A stretch of DNA of 64,000 nucleotides, taken from Bdellovibrio sp. NC01 (lineage in GTDB: Bacteria > Bdellovibrionota > Bdellovibrionia > Bdellovibrionales > Bdellovibrionaceae). Positions 8,993 to 50,483 of this stretch are shown piece after piece. Within the stretch, counting starts at the first letter, position 1, and every line of letters starts with the position of its first letter. The notes below the pieces were generated by a model. It saw only the letters and a list, made by a program, of their open reading frames with translations. It searched no databases and was not told the origin of the DNA. The translations under genes were made by a program, and so were the position numbers. The stretch is from assembly GCF_006874625.1 (NCBI RefSeq), contig NZ_CP030034.1, positions 1,302,001 to 1,366,000 on the forward strand, given 5' to 3'.

Positions 8993-11900
8993 TTAACCAC
9001 CCAAGCGGCCCCAGAATCTATTGTAATGGCAGTCGGTGTAAGTCGCACCAGAGCCCATCGTGTAGTAAATGGACATGGTTTCGCCGACGTTCATGTAAGT
9101 AGAAATGGTTCCTTGAATCGTTTGCCACGTACTGGCTGTCGGTTTCTGCGTAATAATACCGTCGTAAAGAGCATTGTTTTTAAAGAACTCATATCTGAAT
9201 TCGCCGGTTGCGGCGTTGTTTAACAGAGTGTTGAAACCAAATGTGTAAACGCCTGCAACGGGAGCGGTGAATACTCCAGTTGCGGCATTGTAGCCATTGC
9301 CGATGTTGCTTATCACAGTTTCCCAAATCATAATGGCCGGAGCATTAACCACGGAACTGCAGAGCTTGGCTTCAAAGAAAGTTTGGCCAGGAGTCAGAAC
9401 GTTGCCATCACCGCGAACATTCAATCTTGTGTTGCCATTAGCACGAACATTTAAAACATTGGTCGCTGGATCTGTCGACGCCGTATAAATTTGTACGCCG
9501 TGCGCATTAGCTGATGTTCCCGAGTTAAAGAGGTTCGCAACGTATCCAGCGGCTGTCGCTTGCCAGCTCATACCACCAGGGCCAATTCCGTTACCAGCAA
9601 TCGCACCGATTGTTCCGCCATCACCTAAATTGGTACTCGTATTACCGAACATACCCGCAGGGTTGTTTGTGTTAACACCAACTGCACCCGTTGTCGCTAA
9701 CACAAGCTGATTGCTATTCGTGGCAGACTGAAGTTCAAGATTTTTTGGTGTGGTTCCAGTGGAAATAATTCGATAGCCAGATGCCGCATAGCCATTATCG
9801 ATGGCTAAATAGGAACCGCTTAGATTGGTGTCAGTGATTCTGAACAGTGGTGTGCTACCTGCATTTTGATTCGCACCATTGATATGCAATCCCGCCGTAG
9901 GAGACGCCGTACCTACACCCACAGAGCCCCCGGCAGAATTGATAATGACGTTACCTGGTGTCACATTGCTAGTTCCCGCCAACGTCAGAGTATTACTTCC
10001 GGCTGTACCACCATAAAGAGTTTGTCCACCAGCACGCCCCGCAAGCAAAGCATACTGAGTAAAATTATCTCCAGAGATCGCGGCAAAAGAAGGCACACCG
10101 GAGCCATTCGTTAACAACACCGAATTGTTCGCCGTCGCAAGTCCACCGACAACGTTATTCGCAGAAGAATACAAAAGCTGATTCGCCGTCGTCGTAGCAG
10201 GATAACTTGCAGTAGAAAAGACAGGTCCCGTCGCACTATATTGCAGAATCGAACCGTTGACTGTTCCCGGCACCGAAGTCAAAGCTGTGCCAGCAGAGTT
10301 CGATGCAATCACACTGTAGTTTGCAAAACTATTTGTATTGGTACCACCACTCGCAACAGGAAGCACACCGCTGACATCAGCAGTCAAAGCGACAGAATTG
10401 CCGCCTGATAAAACTCCCGCGGCTGTATTTTTAACGATACCCGCAGTGCTAAAATTTGAAAGAGTCAGTCCCGCAAATGTTGGCGTTGCCGCTGTATGAA
10501 TATTTTGTGGTGTTGATAATGTCACAGATCCCGCAGCATTTGCGACCGTGATTTGGTTTGCAGTGCCGTTCAAGGATTTATATTCGTAACCGGTTGCTCC
10601 CGAATTCATTCCTAAAATCTGATTAGCAGTGCCAAGACCAGACAGTCCACCCAATGAAAGAGTAGGGGTCGCACCACCCGTAGAACTCAGCGGCGACGTT
10701 GCACTGACAGAAGTCACTGTGCCGCTGGTTAATGTTTGCCATGATAAATTTCCAGAGCCATCATTGATCAACGCTTGTGTTCCCGAACTCTGTGATGTCG
10801 GAAGTTTTAAAACATAGCTTGTGCCAATCGCGCCAGCAGGTCCTTGGATAGTTGCAGTGTTAGCACCTGATCCCGCCGTAAAAATATCGCCCGTATTCGC
10901 GCTATGAGTGATATTGCTTGCAGCAAAATTGCCAGAGCCATCGCGTTTAACCAAGGTCGAAGGTGTATTTGCATTGGTCGCGGCATTCGCAAGTAGTTCG
11001 GCATTATGAATGTTCGCCGCCGTTGAACCGCCTACGGCATTCACTGTCGCAGCAACAGAACCCGAACCACTTGCAGACACGTCGCTTGTTAACGCCGTGA
11101 TGGTGCCACCAGTACCATTGGCGGTTGCAAGAACTGCCCACGCACCGGAATTAAATTGATAGATTTTAAAAGTATCCGTCGCAAAATAGATGGCGCCAGC
11201 TGACGGGGAACCAGGCTTCGCAGCATCAAGACCTGTTTGGATAGATGGAGTTCCACCCGCGTTACTCACAAGTGGATCGTTAATACCATAGCCACTTAAA
11301 GAGTTCGGTTTGCCCGTCGTGATTTTTGCCCAATCCAGTGACGGAATATCCGCAGCAACAAGAGAGCTAGCTCCGGAAGTCACACGACCTTTAGAGTCCG
11401 TTGTCACCTTATAGTAAGTACCTGCAGTTCCCGTTGCCGCTAATGTCAAAGTTGCTGAGCCCGCACTTGAAGTCACATCTCCGGTAAATGCGGGAAGATT
11501 TGCAGCCGGAAGAGTTCCACTTAAGTCACTCGCCGCTAACGGAGAGTTCACAAACGCCGTCCCATTGAATTTTAAATAGTCCTTATTAGCAGGCGCCGTC
11601 AAAGTCAGAGTAGATCCCTGAAGTTTCGCGACCGTCGCCGCTGCGGAACCAGGCCCACTTGCTGTCACATCACCTGTTAAAGCAGTGACATAATTACCCG
11701 CAGCTTGCTTGCCATTAAAAGTGTTCCAATCGGAAGAAGACAAGTAACCACTCGTTGAAGTTGTTGCTTGGGCAATCGTTATCGAAGGCGTCGTCGTTGC
11801 ATTCGTTACAGACAAAGGAGCCGACGCACTGACCGAAGTCACAGTTCCAGCAGGAATATTCAGCGTCGCTGGAATCCACTTAGAACCATTCCACTGTAAA

Positions 11901-37182: not shown

Positions 37183-37368
37183 ATGGGCGCAGAAGCTTGG
37201 ATTATTGGGGGCATCATTGTTATTTCGATCTTTAGCATTCTTGTATATGCATGCTTGGCAGTCTTTTACCCGGAATGGGTTGGTATCACAGGCAAAGTCG
37301 CATTGAACGCTGAAATCAGCCATCGTGAGGGCGAAACGCCGGCGCCTCATCCTACTGACAAGCTTTAA
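37183..37368 (+). CDS. 61-aa single-pass membrane protein
   Basis: The ATG follows CCAGGAG. One membrane helix (WIIGGIIVISIFSILVYACL, residues 6-25) is followed by a polar tail (EISHREGETPAPHPTDKL). No family is recognised. Its stop overlaps the convergent regulator gene by 4 bp. The strong ribosome site and typical composition support a real gene. Confidence 0.65.
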   Translation: MGAEAWIIGGIIVISIFSILVYACLAVFYPEWVGITGKVALNAEISHREGETPAPHPTDKL

Positions 37369-38210
37369 TTCTTTTTCAGCGCTCGCTGTCTAAACTGTTG
37401 AGCGCTGACTTTTAAGTTCTGTTTTAAAAACCGACTGAAATAGTTCGGATCATCAAAACCTAATTCGTAGCCAATCTCTGACACCGATAACGTTGAATAA
37501 GATAACAATCTTTTAGCCTCTAAGAAGCAACGCTCTTGAATGACTTCTTTTGCGGGCTTACCCAAAACGCGCTGAATTTTTGCTGACAGCGCCTTCGCAG
37601 AGATCTTCAGTTCTTGCGCATAAAACGCGAGCGAATGTTCTTCGCGGAAATGCTCTTCGAGTAAATCTGTGAAGGCCATAATCAGATCTTCTTGTTCATG
37701 ATTGTCAGCCTCTTTGGCTTTACTTAAGCGCAGAAGGTCTAATACTAAAATGCTCAAATAATTTTGCAGAATACTCTGTGAGTGTATTTGCGAGTGACGG
37801 AATTCCTCTTCCATCAGCTCAAAGAATTTACCATTCACAAGTTTGCTTTTACCAAGCTTCATCATGTCGGGCAGGGCGCGGCTGCGACGAGTGATGTGAT
37901 TTTCCAGAGTCATATTTTTTGGAAATGAAGCATCTGTATATTCGATGACGTAACCGCGTGTATTCTTCGCAAGCTTCCAACCGTGAACCTGACCGGGCTT
38001 GATGATATAGATCTGATTTTTACTAACCGTGTGGCGAGTGAAGTCGACTTCATGCCAGCCGCTACCAGAAAGAATCACGACAAGCTGATAGAAATCATGC
38101 TTGTGCGGAAAAGGAATTTTTGGCGTCGTACGATGCTCGAGTTTTTCTACGCGGATGTCAGAAGCTATTGCGGGAATGACGCCTAAAGAGCTCATCGAAT
38201 GTCGTTTCAT
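37365..38210 (-). CDS. AraC-family transcriptional regulator
   Basis: This protein of about 281 aa has an N-terminal cupin effector domain (HKHDFYQLVVILSGSG, IYIIKPGQVHGWK) and a C-terminal double helix-turn-helix (LAFYAQELKISAKALSAKI; SVSEIGYELGFDDPNYFSR). The signature is the usual GFDDPNYFSRFFK-like turn. The start is uncertain between the ATG at 38210 and one at 38195; a TTG at 38225 sits next to GAAAGG. Its target is not clear; the divergently placed exported-protein locus begins 417 bp away. Confidence 0.88.
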   Translation of the reverse strand: MKRHSMSSLGVIPAIASDIRVEKLEHRTTPKIPFPHKHDFYQLVVILSGSGWHEVDFTRHTVSKNQIYIIKPGQVHGWKLAKNTRGYVIEYTDASFPKNMTLENHITRRSRALPDMMKLGKSKLVNGKFFELMEEEFRHSQIHSQSILQNYLSILVLDLLRLSKAKEADNHEQEDLIMAFTDLLEEHFREEHSLAFYAQELKISAKALSAKIQRVLGKPAKEVIQERCFLEAKRLLSYSTLSVSEIGYELGFDDPNYFSRFLKQNLKVSAQQFRQRALKKN

Positions 38211-38627
38211 GGCAGTTGTTATCAACCTTTCTAAACAGAAAAACCAGCTTGAAAACCGCGTCCATGGCTTAGAACAGATGTTCTAGGAATCGTACAAACG
38301 CGGACTTGTTTTTATTTAAATCTTGACCAAGTCTATGGGGTTCCATCACGTCCACCGTGAATTTAATACAAAGAAGTGAAGACAAGAAGCATCATTTTTG
38401 TCTGATTTTTAAATGGGACTACTTAGAGAATTGGAAGAAAACCTCGTAAACCCGCGATTGTTGGTTGGGCAAGATTGCAGCTCCAAAATATTTAAAGATT
38501 CTTTGATTACAGCTCTTTTATTTTAAGAACAGGTGCTCTACAACTCCTCAACACAAAAAAGCATCTTTCAAAGTTCTACCTAGCACGTTTGTACCAACGG
38601 ACCTTGAAGGAAACACTCGGAGAAAAA
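38211..38627 (+). promoter_or_regulatory. 417-bp intergenic region upstream of the exported-protein locus
   Basis: No convincing gene is present. It separates the AraC-type gene (leftward) from the seven-gene exported locus (rightward) and should hold promoters for both. I could not pick a clear sigma-70 pair: TTGACC at 38323 has no good -10 at the right distance. The final CTCGGAGAAAAA is a good ribosome site for the first gene. The length leaves room for a regulator site or a long mRNA leader. Confidence 0.5.
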
Positions 38628-39173
38628 ATGAAGAAGAATATTTTTGCGGCTCTTGGCGCGCTCATGGCTTTTGCTTGCCTTTCAACTGCTGTCGCAGGTG
38701 AATTTGATGGTGGATCAGGCGAATTCGATCCTCGTCCAAACCCAACTTACAACGAAGCAGAGATCCAAAAGAAAATTGCGCAAGAGATGGAAATCGCATG
38801 CTCTGGCAACCTTTGCAAAATCGTTGGTACTGATGGCCAAGGTCAAGGTTGGACAGTTTCTTTCAACGTTGGTTACGGCAACAACAATAACAACAACGGC
38901 ACAGCGATCTACATCGGCGACAACCCAAATAACGCTAACAACATGAATTGGAACGCCGGCATCACTGTGACTTACAAAAACTACACTTGCCAATCAAGTC
39001 TTCGTGTTACGCCAGCGGTTTATCGCTTCGTGAATACATACATGTACAACATGGTGAACAGCGACGGTTCTACGAAAAGAAATTTCTCTCCAGCAGATCA
39101 AACTGTGATTTTGTTCTACACGACGATGTTGAACAAAGTTGAGTCTTGCGGCAACAACACGGGCGCAAAATAG
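38628..39173 (+). CDS. Exported protein, first gene of the seven-gene locus (A)
   Basis: The ATG behind CTCGGAGAAAAA gives a signal peptide (residues 1-23) and a 181-aa product. A Gly/Asp-rich start (GEFDGGSGEFDPRPNP) precedes a two-cysteine motif (ACSGNLCKIVG, Cys58 and Cys63). A Gly/Asn-rich beta stretch has six Asn in a row (85-90), and a second cysteine pair lies near 121 and 174. Asn is coded almost always by AAC, unlike most neighbours, which suggests high expression. No family is recognised. Confidence 0.75.
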   Translation: MKKNIFAALGALMAFACLSTAVAGEFDGGSGEFDPRPNPTYNEAEIQKKIAQEMEIACSGNLCKIVGTDGQGQGWTVSFNVGYGNNNNNNGTAIYIGDNPNNANNMNWNAGITVTYKNYTCQSSLRVTPAVYRFVNTYMYNMVNSDGSTKRNFSPADQTVILFYTTMLNKVESCGNNTGAK

Positions 39174-39233
39174 TTCGTTTTAGATTTCTAACTCCGGTAT
39201 TCCGCCGGAGTTAAACCAACTGCGGGACAACCC

Positions 39234-42005
39234 ATGAGCGTTTTAAAAACAGTAAATACATTCTGTCTTTTTGCAGCACTTGTGTTGTCTTCGTCATTGG
39301 CCTTAACGCAAGTTAACACGAATCAAACGTTGAATAACTTGCGCATCACAAACCGCGCACAATGTGCGTTGGATTCTGATATCCCAACAGATTCTGCATT
39401 TATGATCCTTGATGGTTATAATGCAGGTAAATTAGGAAACTCTTTAGCGAAGAACATGGGCCTTGATGAGGCGTCAATGTCTTCGGATATGATGAAAGAG
39501 TTCCGCCTGTCTGTCAGTCACTTGACGCTGACAATCGTTAACAAACTTCTGACTGGTAAATTGCCTTTGTTGCCGATGAATTTGAAGGACGCAAAACTTC
39601 TGCGTTACAAATCTTTGGCTGATAAATGTGGCGACAAAGTTTATTGCTCTGATATTTCAAACTTCCTTAGCCAAGCCTGGGCTTTGTCAGAACAATCCGG
39701 TATCACTTCAAAAAGCCCCGAGTGGAAGTCGCTTGATAACATCACGACGGCCAATTTCATGTCGGACTTAGGCGCGCGTCGTGTTGGCTGTTATTATTTA
39801 AAACGTTTCTCTCCTCTTCAAGGTCAATTGCAGAATTCAACTATCGATGCAGCCGCTCTTCAAGAAATGGCTGTCGCTTACCTTGAAAAGGAAAAATACA
39901 TCACAAGTTGTTACGACCAAGATGAGACTTTGGATTCTCGTAACGTCGCTTTGCAAATCGACCTTAAAACGGGTGACCAAGACAATTGGAACGCAAAAGG
40001 TTTCGATTTCTGGAATAGCGTAAAAATCTATCTTTCATGGGCTTGGAGAAACACCCAAGTTCCCAATCAAATGAGTCAACGTTTTGGCGAAGTGTTCAAG
40101 TCTTTGGCTCTTGAAGAATCCATGATGTTCATTCCAAACGGCTGTAAATCAATTACGAAGCCCGGGTGTGATATGGAACATCTTTCTTTGAACAACCTTC
40201 GCGAGCTTGCGAAACAAGATCAGTCACAAAACAACACAAGCGCCCAAGTTCCACAAAGCCCGGAAAAAACGGCTTTAGAACGTGGTGCCCGTGGCGTGAA
40301 CAATGACTTCTTGAACACTCGTGGCTACATGACAGCGTCTGAGTGGGTTGATAACTTCCGTAAAAACTTCGTCGCAACTCGTGGTTCGATCAAAAACCGT
40401 CTGCAAAGCTCTGTGCAATTCATGAATGTCATGACCGACACAATGAATGCGGCGACTTTGGCAGAGTACGTAAAACCTTTGGCACTTGCTTCAAATCAAA
40501 CGTCAATCCAAAGAGATGAATTGTACTATCTGTGCACAGAGATTCGTCTTGCTGGTGATAAACGTTTGGATTTCATGAAAACAGACATCGACAACATCGG
40601 TGGCCTGAAAAATATGACGAAGGCGTTGGATAATTCTAAATACACGATCCAAGACTTCGTAGGCTACTTCGATACGTTGTCTAAAACGGTATTGCCATTG
40701 TGTGACCAGTTGGAAAAGACCAACATGTGGCAAGCTGCGAACTATACGGTGAACAAACAAGGCTTTAACCAATGGGCTAAAGAAGTTTTGAATATCGTTC
40801 CTGAACAAACTCAAGGCGCGGATGCGACGGTTCCAGCTTACACTCCACAAATTTATGGCGGTTCAGCACTTCTTGTTTGGAATGCAGATCTTGGCAACCA
40901 AAGTGGTAATATCATCTGCGCTTCAGGTATCGATTGTGCACGTGGTGTGGTTAAGGCGTTGGTTGATTTGTATGCGGTTTCTCAATACGCGGATGCTTAC
41001 TTGCCAGTGTCTTCAACAGCGGCTTCACCCGATGTTTTCAATCCGTATTCAGAATTGAAAGCCTGCAAGATGTACGATCCTTGGTACCAAACAAAACGCG
41101 CCAATCGCGTGTTCATGGCGGACCTTGCAAGTACAGCGCTCTTTGGTTGGAACTTCATGCCGATTTATATCGACGCTGATTATACTCCGCCGAAAGTAAC
41201 TTCATTCCAACGTCTTCTGAAAGACGGTGTGATTAAGTTTGATCCAAATATCGAAAAATCCAAAATGGTGGCATCTGTCGTTGCTGACTTCGGTCCGTTA
41301 ACGGGTGCTCCTTGCGCGGTTTCAATCGCGCCGAATGCGAAGGAATTTAACTTCCTGGCATTTGACGGTATCACCGTAAATTATTGTGATGCTCGTACAA
41401 AAACAGGTGCGACTTCGAGTGGTGCAAACAACATCACGTACGATCCGAACAAAACTCGTTCTTATTGCGGTGGTTGTTCGTTGAATTTCGTAGGTGTGGC
41501 TTCGGGTGTGGCATCATCGACGGCGGCAACGTCATTCAATCCAATCAAGATGGGTGTGTACTTATTCCGCGCGGTTTATCGCTTTGTGACTGCGAAAAAA
41601 GATCCCGTCAACGTGCCTAAGGCCTTCAACGTCGATCTTGCAAAAGTAGCGGACACTTATCGCCGTTACGGAACGATTCCAAAAGATTGTGTCGATCAAT
41701 TAGGCCAAGGTTTGAAGTGCTTCCAAGATATCTGTTCTGCCAAAGCAGCTGATTACTTCGAGCGTTTGACGGGTGGTAAAGTTACAGAAATTACGATTCA
41801 GGACGCGACTCAAAGTAATGAGCGTCAGTTCAATAATAATTCTTACTCTCGCAGAGCATGGGTGAAGTCTGACTTGTGCCAAGGCGAAACGATTTTTAAT
41901 TTTTACTGCCGAGACAATGGATCAGGTTTCCAAGTTCCTTCTGAGCGCCTTTACGGTTTCAGCGGTACTTGTAAGCGCATCATCAAAGAAGGGAACTGGA
42001 AATAA
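39234..42005 (+). CDS. Large exported protein of the seven-gene locus (B)
   Basis: This 923-aa protein has a signal peptide (residues ~1-24). It is rich in helices up to about 500 (KFRLSVSHLTLTIVNKLL-like, SWAWRNTQVPNQMSQRFGEV). After that it is mixed, with many spaced cysteines (CGDKVYC, CKSITKPGC, CASGIDC, CGGCS, CFQDIC), so several disulphides are likely. No catalytic motif or known domain is visible. Its TAA shares an A with the next ATG (TAATG), so gene C depends on its translation. The size and gene order suggest a scaffold for the other products; this is inference. Confidence 0.72.
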   Translation: MSVLKTVNTFCLFAALVLSSSLALTQVNTNQTLNNLRITNRAQCALDSDIPTDSAFMILDGYNAGKLGNSLAKNMGLDEASMSSDMMKEFRLSVSHLTLTIVNKLLTGKLPLLPMNLKDAKLLRYKSLADKCGDKVYCSDISNFLSQAWALSEQSGITSKSPEWKSLDNITTANFMSDLGARRVGCYYLKRFSPLQGQLQNSTIDAAALQEMAVAYLEKEKYITSCYDQDETLDSRNVALQIDLKTGDQDNWNAKGFDFWNSVKIYLSWAWRNTQVPNQMSQRFGEVFKSLALEESMMFIPNGCKSITKPGCDMEHLSLNNLRELAKQDQSQNNTSAQVPQSPEKTALERGARGVNNDFLNTRGYMTASEWVDNFRKNFVATRGSIKNRLQSSVQFMNVMTDTMNAATLAEYVKPLALASNQTSIQRDELYYLCTEIRLAGDKRLDFMKTDIDNIGGLKNMTKALDNSKYTIQDFVGYFDTLSKTVLPLCDQLEKTNMWQAANYTVNKQGFNQWAKEVLNIVPEQTQGADATVPAYTPQIYGGSALLVWNADLGNQSGNIICASGIDCARGVVKALVDLYAVSQYADAYLPVSSTAASPDVFNPYSELKACKMYDPWYQTKRANRVFMADLASTALFGWNFMPIYIDADYTPPKVTSFQRLLKDGVIKFDPNIEKSKMVASVVADFGPLTGAPCAVSIAPNAKEFNFLAFDGITVNYCDARTKTGATSSGANNITYDPNKTRSYCGGCSLNFVGVASGVASSTAATSFNPIKMGVYLFRAVYRFVTAKKDPVNVPKAFNVDLAKVADTYRRYGTIPKDCVDQLGQGLKCFQDICSAKAADYFERLTGGKVTEITIQDATQSNERQFNNNSYSRRAWVKSDLCQGETIFNFYCRDNGSGFQVPSERLYGFSGTCKRIIKEGNWK

Positions 42006-42616
42006 TGAAAACGGTTTCTTTGCTTCTGGTGGGTGCAGGCATTGTCCTGAGTGGTGTTGCTCACGCTTTTTCTGTGAATTCTCGTTATACGACGAATGCA
42101 GCAGGTGCTTACGTTAAAGAAATTCAAGTTCTTTGCGATGCCAATGAAGGTGAGTACTGCCAAGTTTTGTGCAAACAAGAAAAAGAGTGCCGCCGTGTCG
42201 AGCCTTACTGTTTGAATTGTGCAGGAACTGCTTCGTCAGTCATGCGCTCACTCTTCACACAGATTTCTCAGAATTACATTCCGACACAAAACGAAATTCC
42301 TGTTTCTTCATTAGTAAAATATATGGTCACGACGTCATACATCTTGATCGGCGCAAAGAGTGTTTACAATTACTACAAGCCACTCAACTCGGGTGAGTTC
42401 TTGAGTAACTTGCAAGCACTTTGTCCATCCGAGACGGAGGATCCATTGCTCGCAATTAAGCTGACTTCTGAACAGCAACCCGAGAAGTTGAGCTTCATTT
42501 TATGCAAAGACACAAACGGTACTTCACGCGCTTACGATGTGGCGTTGCGCTCGCCAGTCGTCGGAGGCACTCCAGTATTTGATGTGAAGATGAATTTAAA
42601 TTTGAAACTAAAATAA
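42005..42616 (+). CDS. Cysteine-rich exported protein of the seven-gene locus (C)
   Basis: This 203-aa protein has a signal peptide (residues 1-21). A dense cysteine segment (residues ~39-77: VLCDAN, EYCQVLCKQEKECRR, YCLNCAGTA) comes first, followed by a hydrophobic helix (YMVTTSYILIGAKSVYNYY) and a final beta part with two more Cys. The start overlaps the stop of B by one base. No known family is seen; the Cys spacing could form a small disulphide knot or bind metal. Confidence 0.72.
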   Translation: MKTVSLLLVGAGIVLSGVAHAFSVNSRYTTNAAGAYVKEIQVLCDANEGEYCQVLCKQEKECRRVEPYCLNCAGTASSVMRSLFTQISQNYIPTQNEIPVSSLVKYMVTTSYILIGAKSVYNYYKPLNSGEFLSNLQALCPSETEDPLLAIKLTSEQQPEKLSFILCKDTNGTSRAYDVALRSPVVGGTPVFDVKMNLNLKLK

Positions 42617-42666
42617 TTTAGGAACCAATTAACAAAACCCCCAGCAAGGGAAAAATAGGAGAAACT

Positions 42667-43713
42667 ATGAAAAAACTTATGTTGATGCTTTCAGCGATCA
42701 CAATGTTCGCTGTAGCTCAAAATGCAAACGCAATCTCTTTGCGTTTCAAATTCAAAACGTTCAGCTCTGGTCCAAGCATGTACGCGTGTAACGCGGGTAT
42801 CATGACACCACAAGTTGGCGCGAAAGTGTGCTACTTCGAAGGCACTAAAAACACTTGTACTCCAACGACATGTGATAACACTCAAGCAGTGTGTGACACT
42901 CGTTGCGTTTGTACTGGTGACAACGGTGGCGACTACTTGATGAACTACGGTAAAGTTGATTATCAAGACTGGAAAGACAACGGCGACACAACTGCTGCAA
43001 CTGGTAAAGGTTCAGCGACGTTCTCTTCTTCAGGTTCAACTTCTGCGTGGAACCAAGCTTACGATGATTCTCAATCTTGGGGTCGTTCAATCTCTAACCT
43101 TTCTTTCAACTTGGGTTCTGAGCTTTACGGCGCGAAATACTTCGTTGATATCTGCTACCGTGGTCCTCAAATTGAGTACTTCGAAGACGGCGTAACTGCT
43201 AACTTCAACTTGAAAGCACAAGCTAACGCGACTGATTTCTTGGCAAACGGTGTTAACGGTGGTGACAACAACCGTGACGGTCTAGTTATCCCTGGTACAG
43301 TTGATGGCAAGAAATACACTGAGCTAGCTGGCTTGAAAGTACAAGCTTTCGTAGTTTGCGATAAGCAAGGTGAAGGTTCTTACAAATATGCTCGCAACAA
43401 CCAAGGTCAATACAACACAACTGCTAACGAAGCTAACTTCGTATTGAACAACCAAACTGGTTTGCCAACTTCTGGTGGCGACTTGTTCGTTCTTGGTTCA
43501 ATCGCTAACTTGGGTACAGGCAACGTATCTTTGGTTGACGGTTGGGTTAACCAAAACACTCACACACCACGTTTCTGCAAAATCCGTTATGTATTCACAG
43601 AAACAAATGCAACTGCAACTTTGCCAAACTTGCGTAAATGGCAACGTCACGGTGCTGAAATGTGTACTTTCACTGATATCGAAGAAGCATCTGACGCTTC
43701 TGGTTTGAACTAA
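42667..43713 (+). CDS. Abundant-type exported protein of the seven-gene locus (D)
   Basis: This 348-aa protein starts behind AAATAGGAGAAACT with a signal peptide (residues 1-22). Shared landmarks with gene F are CNAGI (41-45), a CVC pair (80-82), YGAKYFVDICYRGP (154-167) and PRFCKIRYVFTE (301-312), so they are paralogues. I count only two AAT codons among roughly thirty Asn codons, and TTC and TAC also dominate, a pattern of very highly expressed genes. The mature protein is Asn/Gly-rich and beta-like, suggesting a main structural component. No known family is recognised. Confidence 0.8.
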   Translation: MKKLMLMLSAITMFAVAQNANAISLRFKFKTFSSGPSMYACNAGIMTPQVGAKVCYFEGTKNTCTPTTCDNTQAVCDTRCVCTGDNGGDYLMNYGKVDYQDWKDNGDTTAATGKGSATFSSSGSTSAWNQAYDDSQSWGRSISNLSFNLGSELYGAKYFVDICYRGPQIEYFEDGVTANFNLKAQANATDFLANGVNGGDNNRDGLVIPGTVDGKKYTELAGLKVQAFVVCDKQGEGSYKYARNNQGQYNTTANEANFVLNNQTGLPTSGGDLFVLGSIANLGTGNVSLVDGWVNQNTHTPRFCKIRYVFTETNATATLPNLRKWQRHGAEMCTFTDIEEASDASGLN

Positions 43714-43743
43714 GCAGTGAATCTTTAAGTTAGGAGAATGACA

Positions 43744-45330
43744 ATGAGTAGAATCGGTTTTTTAAATAAAAGTGTAACTGCCGTTATCACTCTCCTAGCT
43801 ATTGTACTTCAAGGAAACGGGGCGCTTGCAGGTTGCAAGATGTCCCGTGATCCTAAAATGAATTTTGCGATTTCGACTGAAACTCAGTCAATTACAGGTT
43901 TCGGTGAAGCCGCGGATACGCCGCAGGCTCCTTCGGTTATTGAACGCTGCCAGACAGATTCTGGTAAATATTTGATGTTCTCTTTGGGTGTACGTCGTCC
44001 CACTTTAAATTCTGACGTGGCGGATGTTTCTTTTGACGGGCAATTGATCGATACAAAATGCTCTGTCGCAAACTCTTTCCTGAAAGATCAGCCTGACTAC
44101 CAAGAACGCGCACAAGTTATCGATAAACAGTACAAAGCACTGCGCGCTTGTACTTTCCTTCAAATTTACGATTTAGATAATAAACCTATTGATTTCACGC
44201 CATCTCAAGATCATTGCCAAATTTCGCGTCAGCAAAATGGCACTTTGAAAATGGAAGGTGATTACTGCTTCCTTCGTATTCGTCCAAACAATCGTTTTGC
44301 GGTTACGACAATCATTAAGGATGAGTGCCGTAATGCTGCTTACATGAGCGCTCATGGCATTGAGCCACAAGATATCGAAGCCTCTTTGAATGCTTACGTC
44401 GTGGGTGATGCTTCTGGTATCAGCACTGACGTTGATCCAATTGGTGCCACGAAAACTCGTATCTATATTGCTCCCCACAGCAAACTTTTGAAACTTTCTG
44501 AAGACTTCGGTGCCGAAACTCCACGTTTCCCAACGGAATTCAATGCCGATGTTCATATGGGTGAATTGAAAATCCGCGGTGCTAACGAAACTTTCACCGT
44601 CGATATGTCTTTGCTGGTTGATAACCGCTCTAAAAAATCTTGCTACAATGGTATGTGTGCGAGTCCAAGTGACTTCGACGTTCCCGTAGTAGGTGAGGTT
44701 GAACTTTCTGAAGTTCGTCGTGATGGTACTTTGAATTACATGGATTCTTGGTGGCACGCAGGACTTGCGAATCCTCGTTGGATGGGTTTGATGAAAAGTG
44801 GCCCACATATCTTGAATGAAACTGAATTAAAACCGGGCATGCGTTATCACATGACCGTGACTTTCGTGGATCCACTTGAGGACTTCACGCTGTTCACGAA
44901 AGACATTCAACAGATGGTGATCGATCTTAAGACTCTTCAAGGAACAGCAGGTCTTGACGTGATCACGCCGCTGGCATCGTTGGGTAATTTGACCGGCCTG
45001 GTTGGTTTGGACAATCTTCCTTCAATGTCTTCTCCAAACATGGATACAGAGATGGAGCGCATCCTTAAGACTTTGGAAAAGTTAGGTAAAGACCGTAACT
45101 GGCCATCGTACTTTGACGACATTTGCAATTCGTCTCGTGCATCTTGTGTAAAAGCGGGTAAGTCAAAATTCTATTCTAAACTGTCTGTGGAGTTCACTAT
45201 CGGTGAGCTTGATCCAAACGAAGGTATCTGGACTTTGAAGGACTACGTCGTGAAAAGAGAATCACCCGTATTTGGAAACTACACGACAAGACCTGAAGCT
45301 TTGCCAACGGTTACTTGCGAGGCTCAATAA
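43744..45330 (+). CDS. Exported protein of the seven-gene locus (E)
   Basis: I start at the second ATG (43744), 7 nt behind TAGGAG; the first ATG (43738) overlaps that site. The 528-aa product has a signal peptide with a long polar lead. It is mostly beta-strand with spaced cysteines (GCKMSRD, ERCQTDS, TKCSVANS, CTFLQIYD, DHCQIS, DYCFLRI, SCYNGMC, ICNSSRASC). It suggests several Ig-like or jelly-roll units held by disulphides. The last codons overlap the start of F (TAATG). No family is recognised. Confidence 0.73.
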   Translation: MSRIGFLNKSVTAVITLLAIVLQGNGALAGCKMSRDPKMNFAISTETQSITGFGEAADTPQAPSVIERCQTDSGKYLMFSLGVRRPTLNSDVADVSFDGQLIDTKCSVANSFLKDQPDYQERAQVIDKQYKALRACTFLQIYDLDNKPIDFTPSQDHCQISRQQNGTLKMEGDYCFLRIRPNNRFAVTTIIKDECRNAAYMSAHGIEPQDIEASLNAYVVGDASGISTDVDPIGATKTRIYIAPHSKLLKLSEDFGAETPRFPTEFNADVHMGELKIRGANETFTVDMSLLVDNRSKKSCYNGMCASPSDFDVPVVGEVELSEVRRDGTLNYMDSWWHAGLANPRWMGLMKSGPHILNETELKPGMRYHMTVTFVDPLEDFTLFTKDIQQMVIDLKTLQGTAGLDVITPLASLGNLTGLVGLDNLPSMSSPNMDTEMERILKTLEKLGKDRNWPSYFDDICNSSRASCVKAGKSKFYSKLSVEFTIGELDPNEGIWTLKDYVVKRESPVFGNYTTRPEALPTVTCEAQ

Positions 45331-46202
45331 TGAAACTCCTGTTGCTTCTAGCGCTTTTTGCTCCCTCATTTTCATGGGCAGTGACGATCAGACCTTCAGT
45401 CAGCGAAGGGTTTTTCGTGTGCAACGCGGGGATTGCCCATAAAGTAGCAACTGGTACGACTTGCGCTGATCAATATACAGGACTTGCTTGCAACGCGAGC
45501 GATGACACTTCTTGTGTATGCTCGGATTCAACAGCTGGCGAAGATACTTTGACAGCTTCGTGGGACGATTTGACGGTGGCGGAATCAAGCCCACTACGTT
45601 CTCGCGGCAACACTCTTAAATCTAATACAGCGGCGACATATAATAACTTGTTCACGGATTTAAATGCGTGGAACAACAATGTGACTTCAATTGAAATCGG
45701 AACGTCATCAGAAACATACGGTACAAGTTACTTTGTCGATTTCTGCTATCAAGGTCCGGTTGAAAAGATTCAAAAGAAGAACGGAAAAAACCAAGACGTT
45801 TCTGAAGGTATCTATACAATCACAGCCAACGTTGCGGCAGCGAACCAGGGCAGTGGTTTGATTTATCAACAAGATTCAAACTTGGGTATGACTCTGCAAG
45901 TGAACTGCGATCTTCGTGATGTTGGTAAAAGCAAAGATGCAAGAAGCTCAAATGAGTTTGCACCATCAGGCAATGCTTTAGAAGCCGATGTGACGTTTGC
46001 CTCTTCAGGTTACCCACGTTCTAGCACTTTGAGCATGAGCCAACGTTTAAATTCAAAAACAAACTACGTTCCGCGTTTCTGCTCTGTGCGCGCAATTTTC
46101 ACAGAAATGGCCAATTCGTCTTCGGTGAAAGTTCGTCCGAATTCGGCAAGTCCGACAGAGTTCACGATTGATCTTGATATCACGAACGGGGACTTGCTCT
46201 AG
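45330..46202 (+). CDS. Exported paralogue of D in the seven-gene locus (F)
   Basis: The ATG overlaps the TAA of gene E and gives a signal peptide (residues 1-17); the 290-aa product is a shorter relative of D. Shared landmarks are CNAGI (31-35), CVC (62-64), YGTSYFVDFCYQGP (130-143) and PRFCSVRAIFTE (248-259). Most landmark Cys line up, suggesting the same disulphide fold. Codon use is ordinary, unlike D, so F may be a minor or tip version. The gene end is 3 bp from the next ATG. Confidence 0.8.
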   Translation: MKLLLLLALFAPSFSWAVTIRPSVSEGFFVCNAGIAHKVATGTTCADQYTGLACNASDDTSCVCSDSTAGEDTLTASWDDLTVAESSPLRSRGNTLKSNTAATYNNLFTDLNAWNNNVTSIEIGTSSETYGTSYFVDFCYQGPVEKIQKKNGKNQDVSEGIYTITANVAAANQGSGLIYQQDSNLGMTLQVNCDLRDVGKSKDARSSNEFAPSGNALEADVTFASSGYPRSSTLSMSQRLNSKTNYVPRFCSVRAIFTEMANSSSVKVRPNSASPTEFTIDLDITNGDLL

Positions 46203-46205
46203 TTC

Positions 46206-47417
46206 ATGTCCAAGCTATTGGCACTTTTCATTCTGATTCTGAGCACAACTGCGCACGGTGCAGTTTGGACAGTGACTCGGTCATGGACGCCCGCAGATGA
46301 AGATCGTTTTGCAGTCTTTTTGGAAAAAGAATGGCAAACGGACGTTTTCACGAATCCTCAATCTAAATTGTATGGCATTAAAACGGATTGTGCCGATGCA
46401 GTTTATGCAGCTCGTGCCGTGTTTGCTGCGCGCGAAGGTTTGCCTGTTCAGTTTAGTGATGTGACCCGTTCGGGAAGTTACTTTACGCAAGCCATGACTC
46501 GTTGGGATTCACAACCGCAAGATCAGCGTGTGCGTAGTTTTATTATTTATATCTCTGACATGGTGTCGACTTATACTTTGGAAAGTGACACCTATCCGGT
46601 CACCATCGATAAACAATACTTCAAACCGGGCGTGATTTTTTTAAGTCCGATTCTGACTGAAAGCCAAAGACGTGCGACTGGTTTTCATGGTGGTCACGCC
46701 GAATATATTAAGAGTATTGATGATATCGGTTTTAGTGAAGCGATCTCTTCAACTTCGCCGAAAGCAGTTCGTACTTTAAGCTTGAATAAAAATCCTTATA
46801 TGGCGCCTTTCACTTTAAACGGTGGTTTTCGTAAGTGGCGTCAACCGGGCCAGTTTGGCGTTTCGAATAGCGCTCTTCCAGGTTACGGGATGGACCAATT
46901 TAAATTGGCTGATTGGGCACCATTAAAACTTATCACTCGTCGTCAGATCTATCAGTGGCATGAATCGATTCGTCGTCTTATGCGCACGCGTGTTCCGTCT
47001 TTTGACGAGCGTGTGGATATCGTGGTCGATAGCATTTGTTCTTTACTTACAACGCGTGCAGAGCTTGTGATTGACGGGTGGAGCAAGGTTACGAAGAACG
47101 GTAATCAATGCCTGCCACCGGATCTTGCCGATGAATACTCAACAGACACGCGCGATCAACGCATTCGTGGTTCTTATTTTCAATTAGGCGATCTTTACGA
47201 CTGGAAAAAACGTGAAGATGGTGACGATATTATGGGCTCGGTCGAAGATGCCCAACCGAAGCTAGAAAAATGCCAGATTCAATATTGGCCGGGTCGTTTT
47301 ATGAATACGTGGGAACTGTGGGCGCGTGTGCGTGACGGGCAATTGGCGTCATCTGCATATTATGCCCCAGCAGTGCGCTGGGGATTCAGAGCGCCAAACG
47401 GAAAAGACTGCCGCTAA
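46206..47417 (+). CDS. Exported papain/NlpC-like protein, last gene of the seven-gene locus (G)
   Basis: This 403-aa protein has a signal peptide (residues 1-18). The motif YGIKTDCADAVYAAR (Cys62) looks like the N-terminal Cys helix of papain-like/NlpC-type enzymes. FHGGHAEYIKSID (His161/His164) matches the strand carrying the second catalytic residue, and SSTSPKAVRTL follows. This suggests a thiol peptidase, amidase or transpeptidase of the periplasm, but a third catalytic residue is not clear. The last ~100 residues contain one more Cys pair. It ends one base from a convergent gene. Confidence 0.65.
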   Translation: MSKLLALFILILSTTAHGAVWTVTRSWTPADEDRFAVFLEKEWQTDVFTNPQSKLYGIKTDCADAVYAARAVFAAREGLPVQFSDVTRSGSYFTQAMTRWDSQPQDQRVRSFIIYISDMVSTYTLESDTYPVTIDKQYFKPGVIFLSPILTESQRRATGFHGGHAEYIKSIDDIGFSEAISSTSPKAVRTLSLNKNPYMAPFTLNGGFRKWRQPGQFGVSNSALPGYGMDQFKLADWAPLKLITRRQIYQWHESIRRLMRTRVPSFDERVDIVVDSICSLLTTRAELVIDGWSKVTKNGNQCLPPDLADEYSTDTRDQRIRGSYFQLGDLYDWKKREDGDDIMGSVEDAQPKLEKCQIQYWPGRFMNTWELWARVRDGQLASSAYYAPAVRWGFRAPNGKDCR

Positions 47418-50216: not shown

Positions 50217-50483
50217 CTATTTCGTTTCTGTCGTGGTCTCAGTCTCAGTTGTGGTTTTTTTCTTACCGTCTGAGTGAGTTTTAGTTTTTTGTTTTACTTC
50301 TGTTTCAGAAGACGCGTGTTCGCCCTTCATTTTCTTTTTTGTCTTATGAGTTGTTGTTTCAGTACCAGTGATTGGATTTTTTGAGTGGTCCGTAGTTGAC
50401 TCAGTTTTATTTTCCATATCAGCAGCGAATGCCAATGAACCAGCTAAAACAACAGCAGATAGCAACATAGTTTGTTTTTTCAT
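50217..50483 (-). CDS. Small exported Thr/Lys/Glu-rich protein
   Basis: This 88-aa protein starts behind AAAGGAGGA with a signal peptide (residues 1-21, ending SLAFA). The mature part is almost all Thr, Lys, Glu and Ser (THKTKKKMKGEHASSETEVK, then TETETTTETK) and looks disordered, with short repeats. Such peptides are often envelope-stress or adhesin-like fillers; function unknown. Confidence 0.75.
   Translation of the reverse strand: MKKQTMLLSAVVLAGSLAFAADMENKTESTTDHSKNPITGTETTTHKTKKKMKGEHASSETEVKQKTKTHSDGKKKTTTETETTTETK

Follow-up and report, generated by a model that had tools for sequence, protein, structure and literature searches.

Seven exported-protein genes without a catalogued family are very probably inherited as one system in the Bdellovibrionota

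The exported set of F-type conjugation systems (TraH, TraN, TraU, TraW, TrbC and TraF) consists of several exported cysteine-rich proteins. In the TasA/TapA fibres of Bacillus (tapA-sipW-tasA), TasA polymerises through an N-terminal donor strand that joins the subunits (PMC9674648). The locus described here covers positions 38628–47417 of a window of 64,000 nucleotides (the whole stretch of DNA that was analysed; NZ_CP030034.1, 1302001–1366000) from Bdellovibrio sp. NC01. The products of its seven genes, A to G (Table 1), are probably parts of a single machine, hitherto unrecognised, of the envelope or the extracellular space. The locus is like the F-type set in that several exported cysteine-rich proteins are encoded together, but differs from it in having no TraH, TraN, TraU, TraW or TraF family match and no associated motor or coupling ATPase.

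Table 1. Genes and putative control elements of the locus, with positions in the window.
Feature	Positions	Strand	Length	Mature Cys	Description
21-bp element	38548..38568	+	21 bp		TCAACACAAAAAAGCATCTTT; upstream of A
A	38628..39173	+	181 aa	4	predicted signal peptide; mature protein of ~158 aa; Asn/Gly-rich
A–B hairpin	39174..39233	+			AACTCCGG-tattccg-CCGGAGTT; dG -22.3, z -3.2
B	39234..42005	+	923 aa (mature ~900 aa)	22	large, predicted exported protein
C	42005..42616	+	203 aa	8	predicted exported protein
D	42667..43713	+	348 aa	11	predicted exported beta-sandwich protein
E	43738..45330	+	530 aa	12	predicted exported protein
F	45330..46202	+	290 aa	8	shorter paralogue of D
G	46206..47417	+	403 aa	5	predicted exported candidate thiol hydrolase; optional member

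The earlier note had described seven consecutive genes on one strand, all encoding signal peptides, and both the open reading frame calls and the signal-peptide rule agreed with this. The TAATG overlaps at the B/C (42005) and E/F (45330) junctions and the 3-bp gap between F and G are likewise present in the letters. The description of all gaps as tiny or negative held for these three of the six junctions and not for the other three, at which ordinary gaps of 60 bp (A–B, with a hairpin), 50 bp (C–D) and 24 bp (D–E) are found. The gene after G is convergent. Upstream, an AraC-like regulator gene, judged so by eye, lies on the minus strand (37365–38225), divergent from A; as a part of the module it was dropped, because the flanking genes differ between families. 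Also a small exported low-complexity protein with Thr/Glu/Lys-rich repeats is encoded in the window, on the minus strand at 50217–50483.

All seven proteins passed the signal-peptide rule, a simple rule on N-termini, compared with 35% of 245 neighbouring open reading frames; from this background rate the chance of seven passes in a row is approximately 6e-4. The same rule was passed by 142 of the 155 homologues. Mature proteins A–F contain 2.4–4.4% Cys and G 1.3%, the corresponding value of the neighbouring proteins being 0.93%, and the characterization of most of the proteins as cysteine-rich is thus true for six of them. The number of cysteines is even in five of the seven proteins (A, B, C, E and F), as disulfides would predict, and the module proteins may undergo oxidative folding with disulfide formation in the periplasm.

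Scans against Pfam, NCBIfam, PHROGs and PADLOC gave nothing above cut-off for any of the seven proteins. The locus had been presented as one with no recognised family, and these scans bear this out; the contrary expectation, that each protein would match an unrelated known family, failed. Pfam searches with the homologues (25 of B, 26 of E and 41 of D/F) produced chance-level matches only, and PDB sequence profile searches with B, D/F, E and G produced no match. The main-text literature search found no reports on function, expression, mutants or imaging of the module, and the module genes are unmentioned in the main texts searched (tag ranges bd074x/bd075x and bd292x–bd294x, estimated from anchors).

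Separate profile searches of 144 Bdellovibrionota genomes detected D and E in 31 genomes each and B in 29, and every genome with B also had D and E. D and E were found without B only in G117 and G137, where B is missing because the module lies on small, fragmentary contigs (3.1 and 13.6 kb) with sequence missing. When a single D sequence was used as the query, D was found in 30 of the 144 genomes, with F usually about 2.5 kb away. In the scan of 84,980 species genomes, which relatives of B outside the phylum with diverged motifs would escape, B was found only in records that are named as Bdellovibrionota groups or are unclassified MAGs; as far as these sequences were searched, the module is restricted to the Bdellovibrionota. 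Within the genus, B is found in 17 of the 24 genomes, at one to three copies per genome. The seven genomes that lack it include G083, putatively that of the predatory strain W, which retains a G homologue, and the system thus appears dispensable for predation as such.

Gene neighbourhoods were compared at 26 loci of a first set and at 38 further loci from the scan. D and E are adjacent in nearly every copy, and so are B and C. In Bdellovibrio the genes run A-B-C-D-E-F(-G), in Bacteriovoracaceae D-E-(F)-A-B-C. Homologues of A are present at all 26 loci of the first set. A usually lies near the other genes, and in some copies (L064, L073 and L078) it is detached from B-C or encoded on the opposite strand. 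In Bacteriovorax sp. DB6_IX, A is tandemly duplicated (L138:8436–8987 and 9026–9553). F is frequent among the copies, not universal, while G is missing in the second copy of strain HD100 and in many Bacteriovoracaceae copies. Across families no gene outside A–G recurs beside the module, other neighbours being shared by close relatives only. The synteny comparison proposed in the earlier note thus showed the gene order to be preserved in other Bdellovibrionota, and the module genes, rather than being scattered in relatives, travel together across the phylum.

Pairwise distance matrices agreed well within A-B-C (Spearman 0.78–0.88) and within D-E-F (0.82–0.93), and better within these two blocks than between them. 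A is the most conserved member between copies, and D, E and F diverge faster than A and B. The locus is very probably one single inherited system, with A, B, C, D and E as its core, F as a paralogue of D and G as an add-on.

Two copies of the module are present in the type strain HD100, which is genetically tractable, the first copy with and the second without G. Copy 1 (L067, HD100 702001–722000) lies beside bd0742 (GGDEF+FHA), bd0743 and bd0745. The product of bd0742 has been named DgcB (PMC11025332), dgcB being an invasion-linked regulator gene, and published RT-PCR primers for bd0743, which encodes an RpoE-like sigma factor, match L067. Copy 2 is located approximately 21 kb below secY (bd2955). 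Just upstream of it, a protein of 1051 aa with collagen triple-helix repeats is encoded (L080:15298–18453).

Strain kdesi has three copies of B, and one of its module copies, L109, is a hybrid. The A, B and C proteins of L109 are 93, 73 and 63% identical to those of HD100 copy 1, and E and G 33 and 43%, respectively; with the G of NC01 the identity is 59%. The tree test of B rejected a clade of kdesi and NC01 (p-value 9e-30), and those of E and G rejected a clade of kdesi and HD100 (p-values 0.04 and 0.025). The D of L109 groups with HD100, unstarred. Judged from these comparisons, A–C of L109 come from the lineage of HD100 copy 1 and E and G from the NC01 lineage, so that at least one recombination event within the module is probable. 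A mosaic origin of the NC01 locus (A–C from HD100 copy 2, D–G from copy 1) was hinted at by the identities, and was dropped as the AU tests gave it no support. By the sequence evidence, complete copies have been duplicated and, in part, passed from one lineage to another.

The 21-bp element is common to the regions upstream of A in L081, L084 and L103. Allowing at most one mismatch, it has one match per genome in three Bdellovibrio genomes (four loci), always upstream of A; these matches are only suggestive, because the search pattern had itself been built from the loci concerned and L062, the closest relative, is without the element. Strong hairpins or terminators directly after A, such as the one in NC01, are found also in L111, L113, L076, L079 and L128, in all of which A precedes B-C. 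They suggest that A may be produced separately from B-C or in larger amounts, and that A may not always be co-transcribed with B.

The model of B (pLDDT 85, pTM 0.83) is largely helical and has a beta region around residues 620–730 of the mature chain, and 24 columns are invariant across 44 homologues. Fold searches against PDB gave no match for B (best Foldseek E 0.41, best VIA Z 4.7), the weak matches including START/Bet v 1/TULIP-like folds; as large models can hide domain matches, a new fold is not claimed. A relationship of E to D or B was ruled out by profile comparison.

D was modelled as a beta-sandwich (AlphaFold2, 55 sequences; pLDDT 87, pTM 0.89). Directly after the predicted cleavage site, the mature protein begins with a conserved alternating strand, ISLRFKF in NC01 and I/V-x-L/V-x-F-x-F as a general pattern. 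Among 51 D/F sequences the alternate positions of the strand are hydrophobic in 88, 82, 88 and 69%, while the intervening positions are polar (6–14% hydrophobic); nearly every D sequence shows the alternation. Residues 1–14 of the D model are coil, leaving the N-terminal strand unplaced. The alternation together with the coil in the monomer model constitutes a likeness to a donor strand. F, earlier proposed to be a paralogue of D, is a genuine but distant one (E 7e-9, 27% identity), and is without the clean strand pattern.

In Foldseek, the D model matched weakly a virus VP2 (E 7e-4, TM 0.2) and, at rank 6, TasA (8aur; E 0.027, TM-score <0.3). The VIA comparison of D with TasA gave Z 5.0 over 159 residues with 15% identity, also a weak match and one that glycan-binding modules equal. 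Other weak VIA matches (Z 4.3–5.8) included sialidase jelly-rolls, CfaE (4.7) and the CanA cannula, the sialidase and glycan-binding modules having Z 5.2–5.8, equal to or above TasA. Fbs1, SGBP-B, CBM61 and the FedF fimbrial lectin domain were also among the weak matches.

The proposal of G as a candidate thiol enzyme stands at the level of motifs: D61-C62-A63-D64 and H164 are invariant in 29 of 29 homologues, and C62 is the odd one among the five cysteines. By this motif G may be a thiol hydrolase-like enzyme. The nearest Pfam score of G, that of DUF4846, is 20.7 bits and thus below the cut-off of 37 bits; of 15 G homologues, 4 had a weak match to the same family (best E 3e-4), and the NlpC/P60 profile did not match G. 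Homologues of G include proteins of approximately 1000 aa outside the module. Across the phylum, proteins of 900–1090 aa (L089–L097) contain, outside modules, a domain resembling G in which DCAD and the His recur, their remaining ca. 500 residues having no Pfam match. NC01 itself has a second G homologue of 437 aa far from the module (L088:9995–11308, near 2.823 Mb).

The earlier note had likened the locus to the parts list of an envelope or extracellular assembly, with scaffold, main subunit, minor subunit and processing enzyme. A multi-protein exported system with the D/F paralogues bears this out in part; the assembly and the four roles are hypothetical, and G is not a constant member. A polymer built by donor-strand exchange is put forward tentatively, its probability being somewhat short of even. 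D would be the repeating beta-sandwich subunit of an extracellular or surface polymer, in which the mature N-terminus of one D would be the donor strand completing the sandwich of the next. F would start or cap the polymer, and B, together with C and E, would be an envelope platform or assembly factor. G would be an accessory enzyme of thiol peptidase, amidase or transglutaminase-like type, either processing the product or loosening the wall. Several observations count against the polymer. D has weak fold matches only, with sialidase and glycan-binding modules reaching Z values equal to or higher than that of TasA; B has no interpretable fold match; the module encodes neither an exporter of the outer membrane nor an ATPase, usher or anchor; and B is absent from seven of the 24 genomes of the genus. 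That the module represents a new class of disulfide-locked secreted surface polymer of predatory bacteria, with a donor-strand D, a B platform of unseen fold and no usher, ATPase or dedicated peptidase, is conceivable, if doubtful.

The products might instead form a soluble complex that is released into the prey (bdelloplast) or onto the prey surface for invasion or digestion, with B as the core, D and F as binding proteins and G as the enzyme. All the products look exported and rich in disulfides, G resembles a thiol hydrolase, the closest fold matches of D include glycan-binding modules, and one HD100 copy lies beside the invasion-linked dgcB, in a phylum rich in prey-directed secreted proteins (PMC11656739). 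Such a complex is nevertheless unlikely, as the module products have no known secretion signal beyond Sec, B is missing in strain W and in other predators, and the paper on the stage-resolved proteome makes no mention of it in its main text within the searched tag ranges.

The same weak matches of D (sialidase jelly-rolls, Fbs1, SGBP-B, CBM61 and the fimbrial lectin) would fit also a complex for uptake or adhesion, in which the jelly-rolls of D and F would bind sugars on prey or matrix and B and E would hold them at the cell surface; the faster divergence of D, E and F is what might be seen in prey-facing proteins. However, jelly-rolls are common and the D matches remain below Z 6.5, the module includes no transporter, lipoprotein or TonB receptor, and conserved sugar-binding residues were not identified, which makes this reading quite improbable. 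It is still less probable that the module is a locus for competition or polymorphism between predators, its exported structure being exchanged for antigenic or rival-recognition variation. The patchy presence, the one to three copies per genome and the kdesi hybrid (A–C from the HD100 lineage, E and G from the NC01 lineage) are in line with this, but A and B are conserved and not polymorphic, and the family scans of the seven proteins found no toxin or immunity family. The most improbable reading is that the module forms the exported part of a secretion machine, conjugation-like (F-type TraH, TraN, TraU and TraW) or other, whose inner-membrane motor lies elsewhere. In its favour is the resemblance of the operon to the F-type parts list; against it, neither the seven proteins nor the homologues of B (25), E (26) and D/F (41) had a Pfam match, and no motor gene or ATPase recurs beside the module.

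The locus adds seven exported families without catalogued relatives, inherited as a unit across a predatory phylum. The two HD100 copies may be redundant, in which case single-gene screens could miss the module; the authors of a Tn-seq study have warned that redundancy hides pathways (PMC6561027). Should the products indeed build something on the cell surface, this would represent a bacterial assembly of a new kind, which might serve in prey handling, biofilm or contact between predators.

In comparison with known systems, G alone has likenesses to NlpC/P60, papain-like thiol hydrolases and DUF4846, namely the invariant DCAD followed further on by a Gly-His-like motif; it differs from them in scoring below the Pfam cut-off and in having approximately 200 C-terminal residues without a known match. 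For the donor-strand polymer reading the closest systems are pili and fibres. Chaperone-usher and type V pili share the donor-strand idea, and CfaE (Z 4.7) and the FedF lectin domain are among the weak matches of D. The seven proteins have no Pfam match to an usher or a PapD-like chaperone, and B is modelled as mostly helical and not as a barrel, unlike the usher of the chaperone-usher pili. From the TasA/TapA fibres the module differs in its many disulfides, its Gram-negative host, and four additional exported proteins, A, B, C and E, that have no counterpart. Sequence matches are also lacking: neither D nor the 41 D/F homologues matched the TasA/camelysin family of Pfam above chance, TasA was not found in the PDB profile search with D/F, and in Pfam and the other family scans no SipW-like signal peptidase was found among the seven products. 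Common to the module and the TasA/TapA fibres (PMC9674648) are, along with a weak fold match between D and TasA, an exported subunit (D, predicted to be a beta-sandwich), an amphipathic strand at its N-terminus and a related minor subunit encoded in the same operon.
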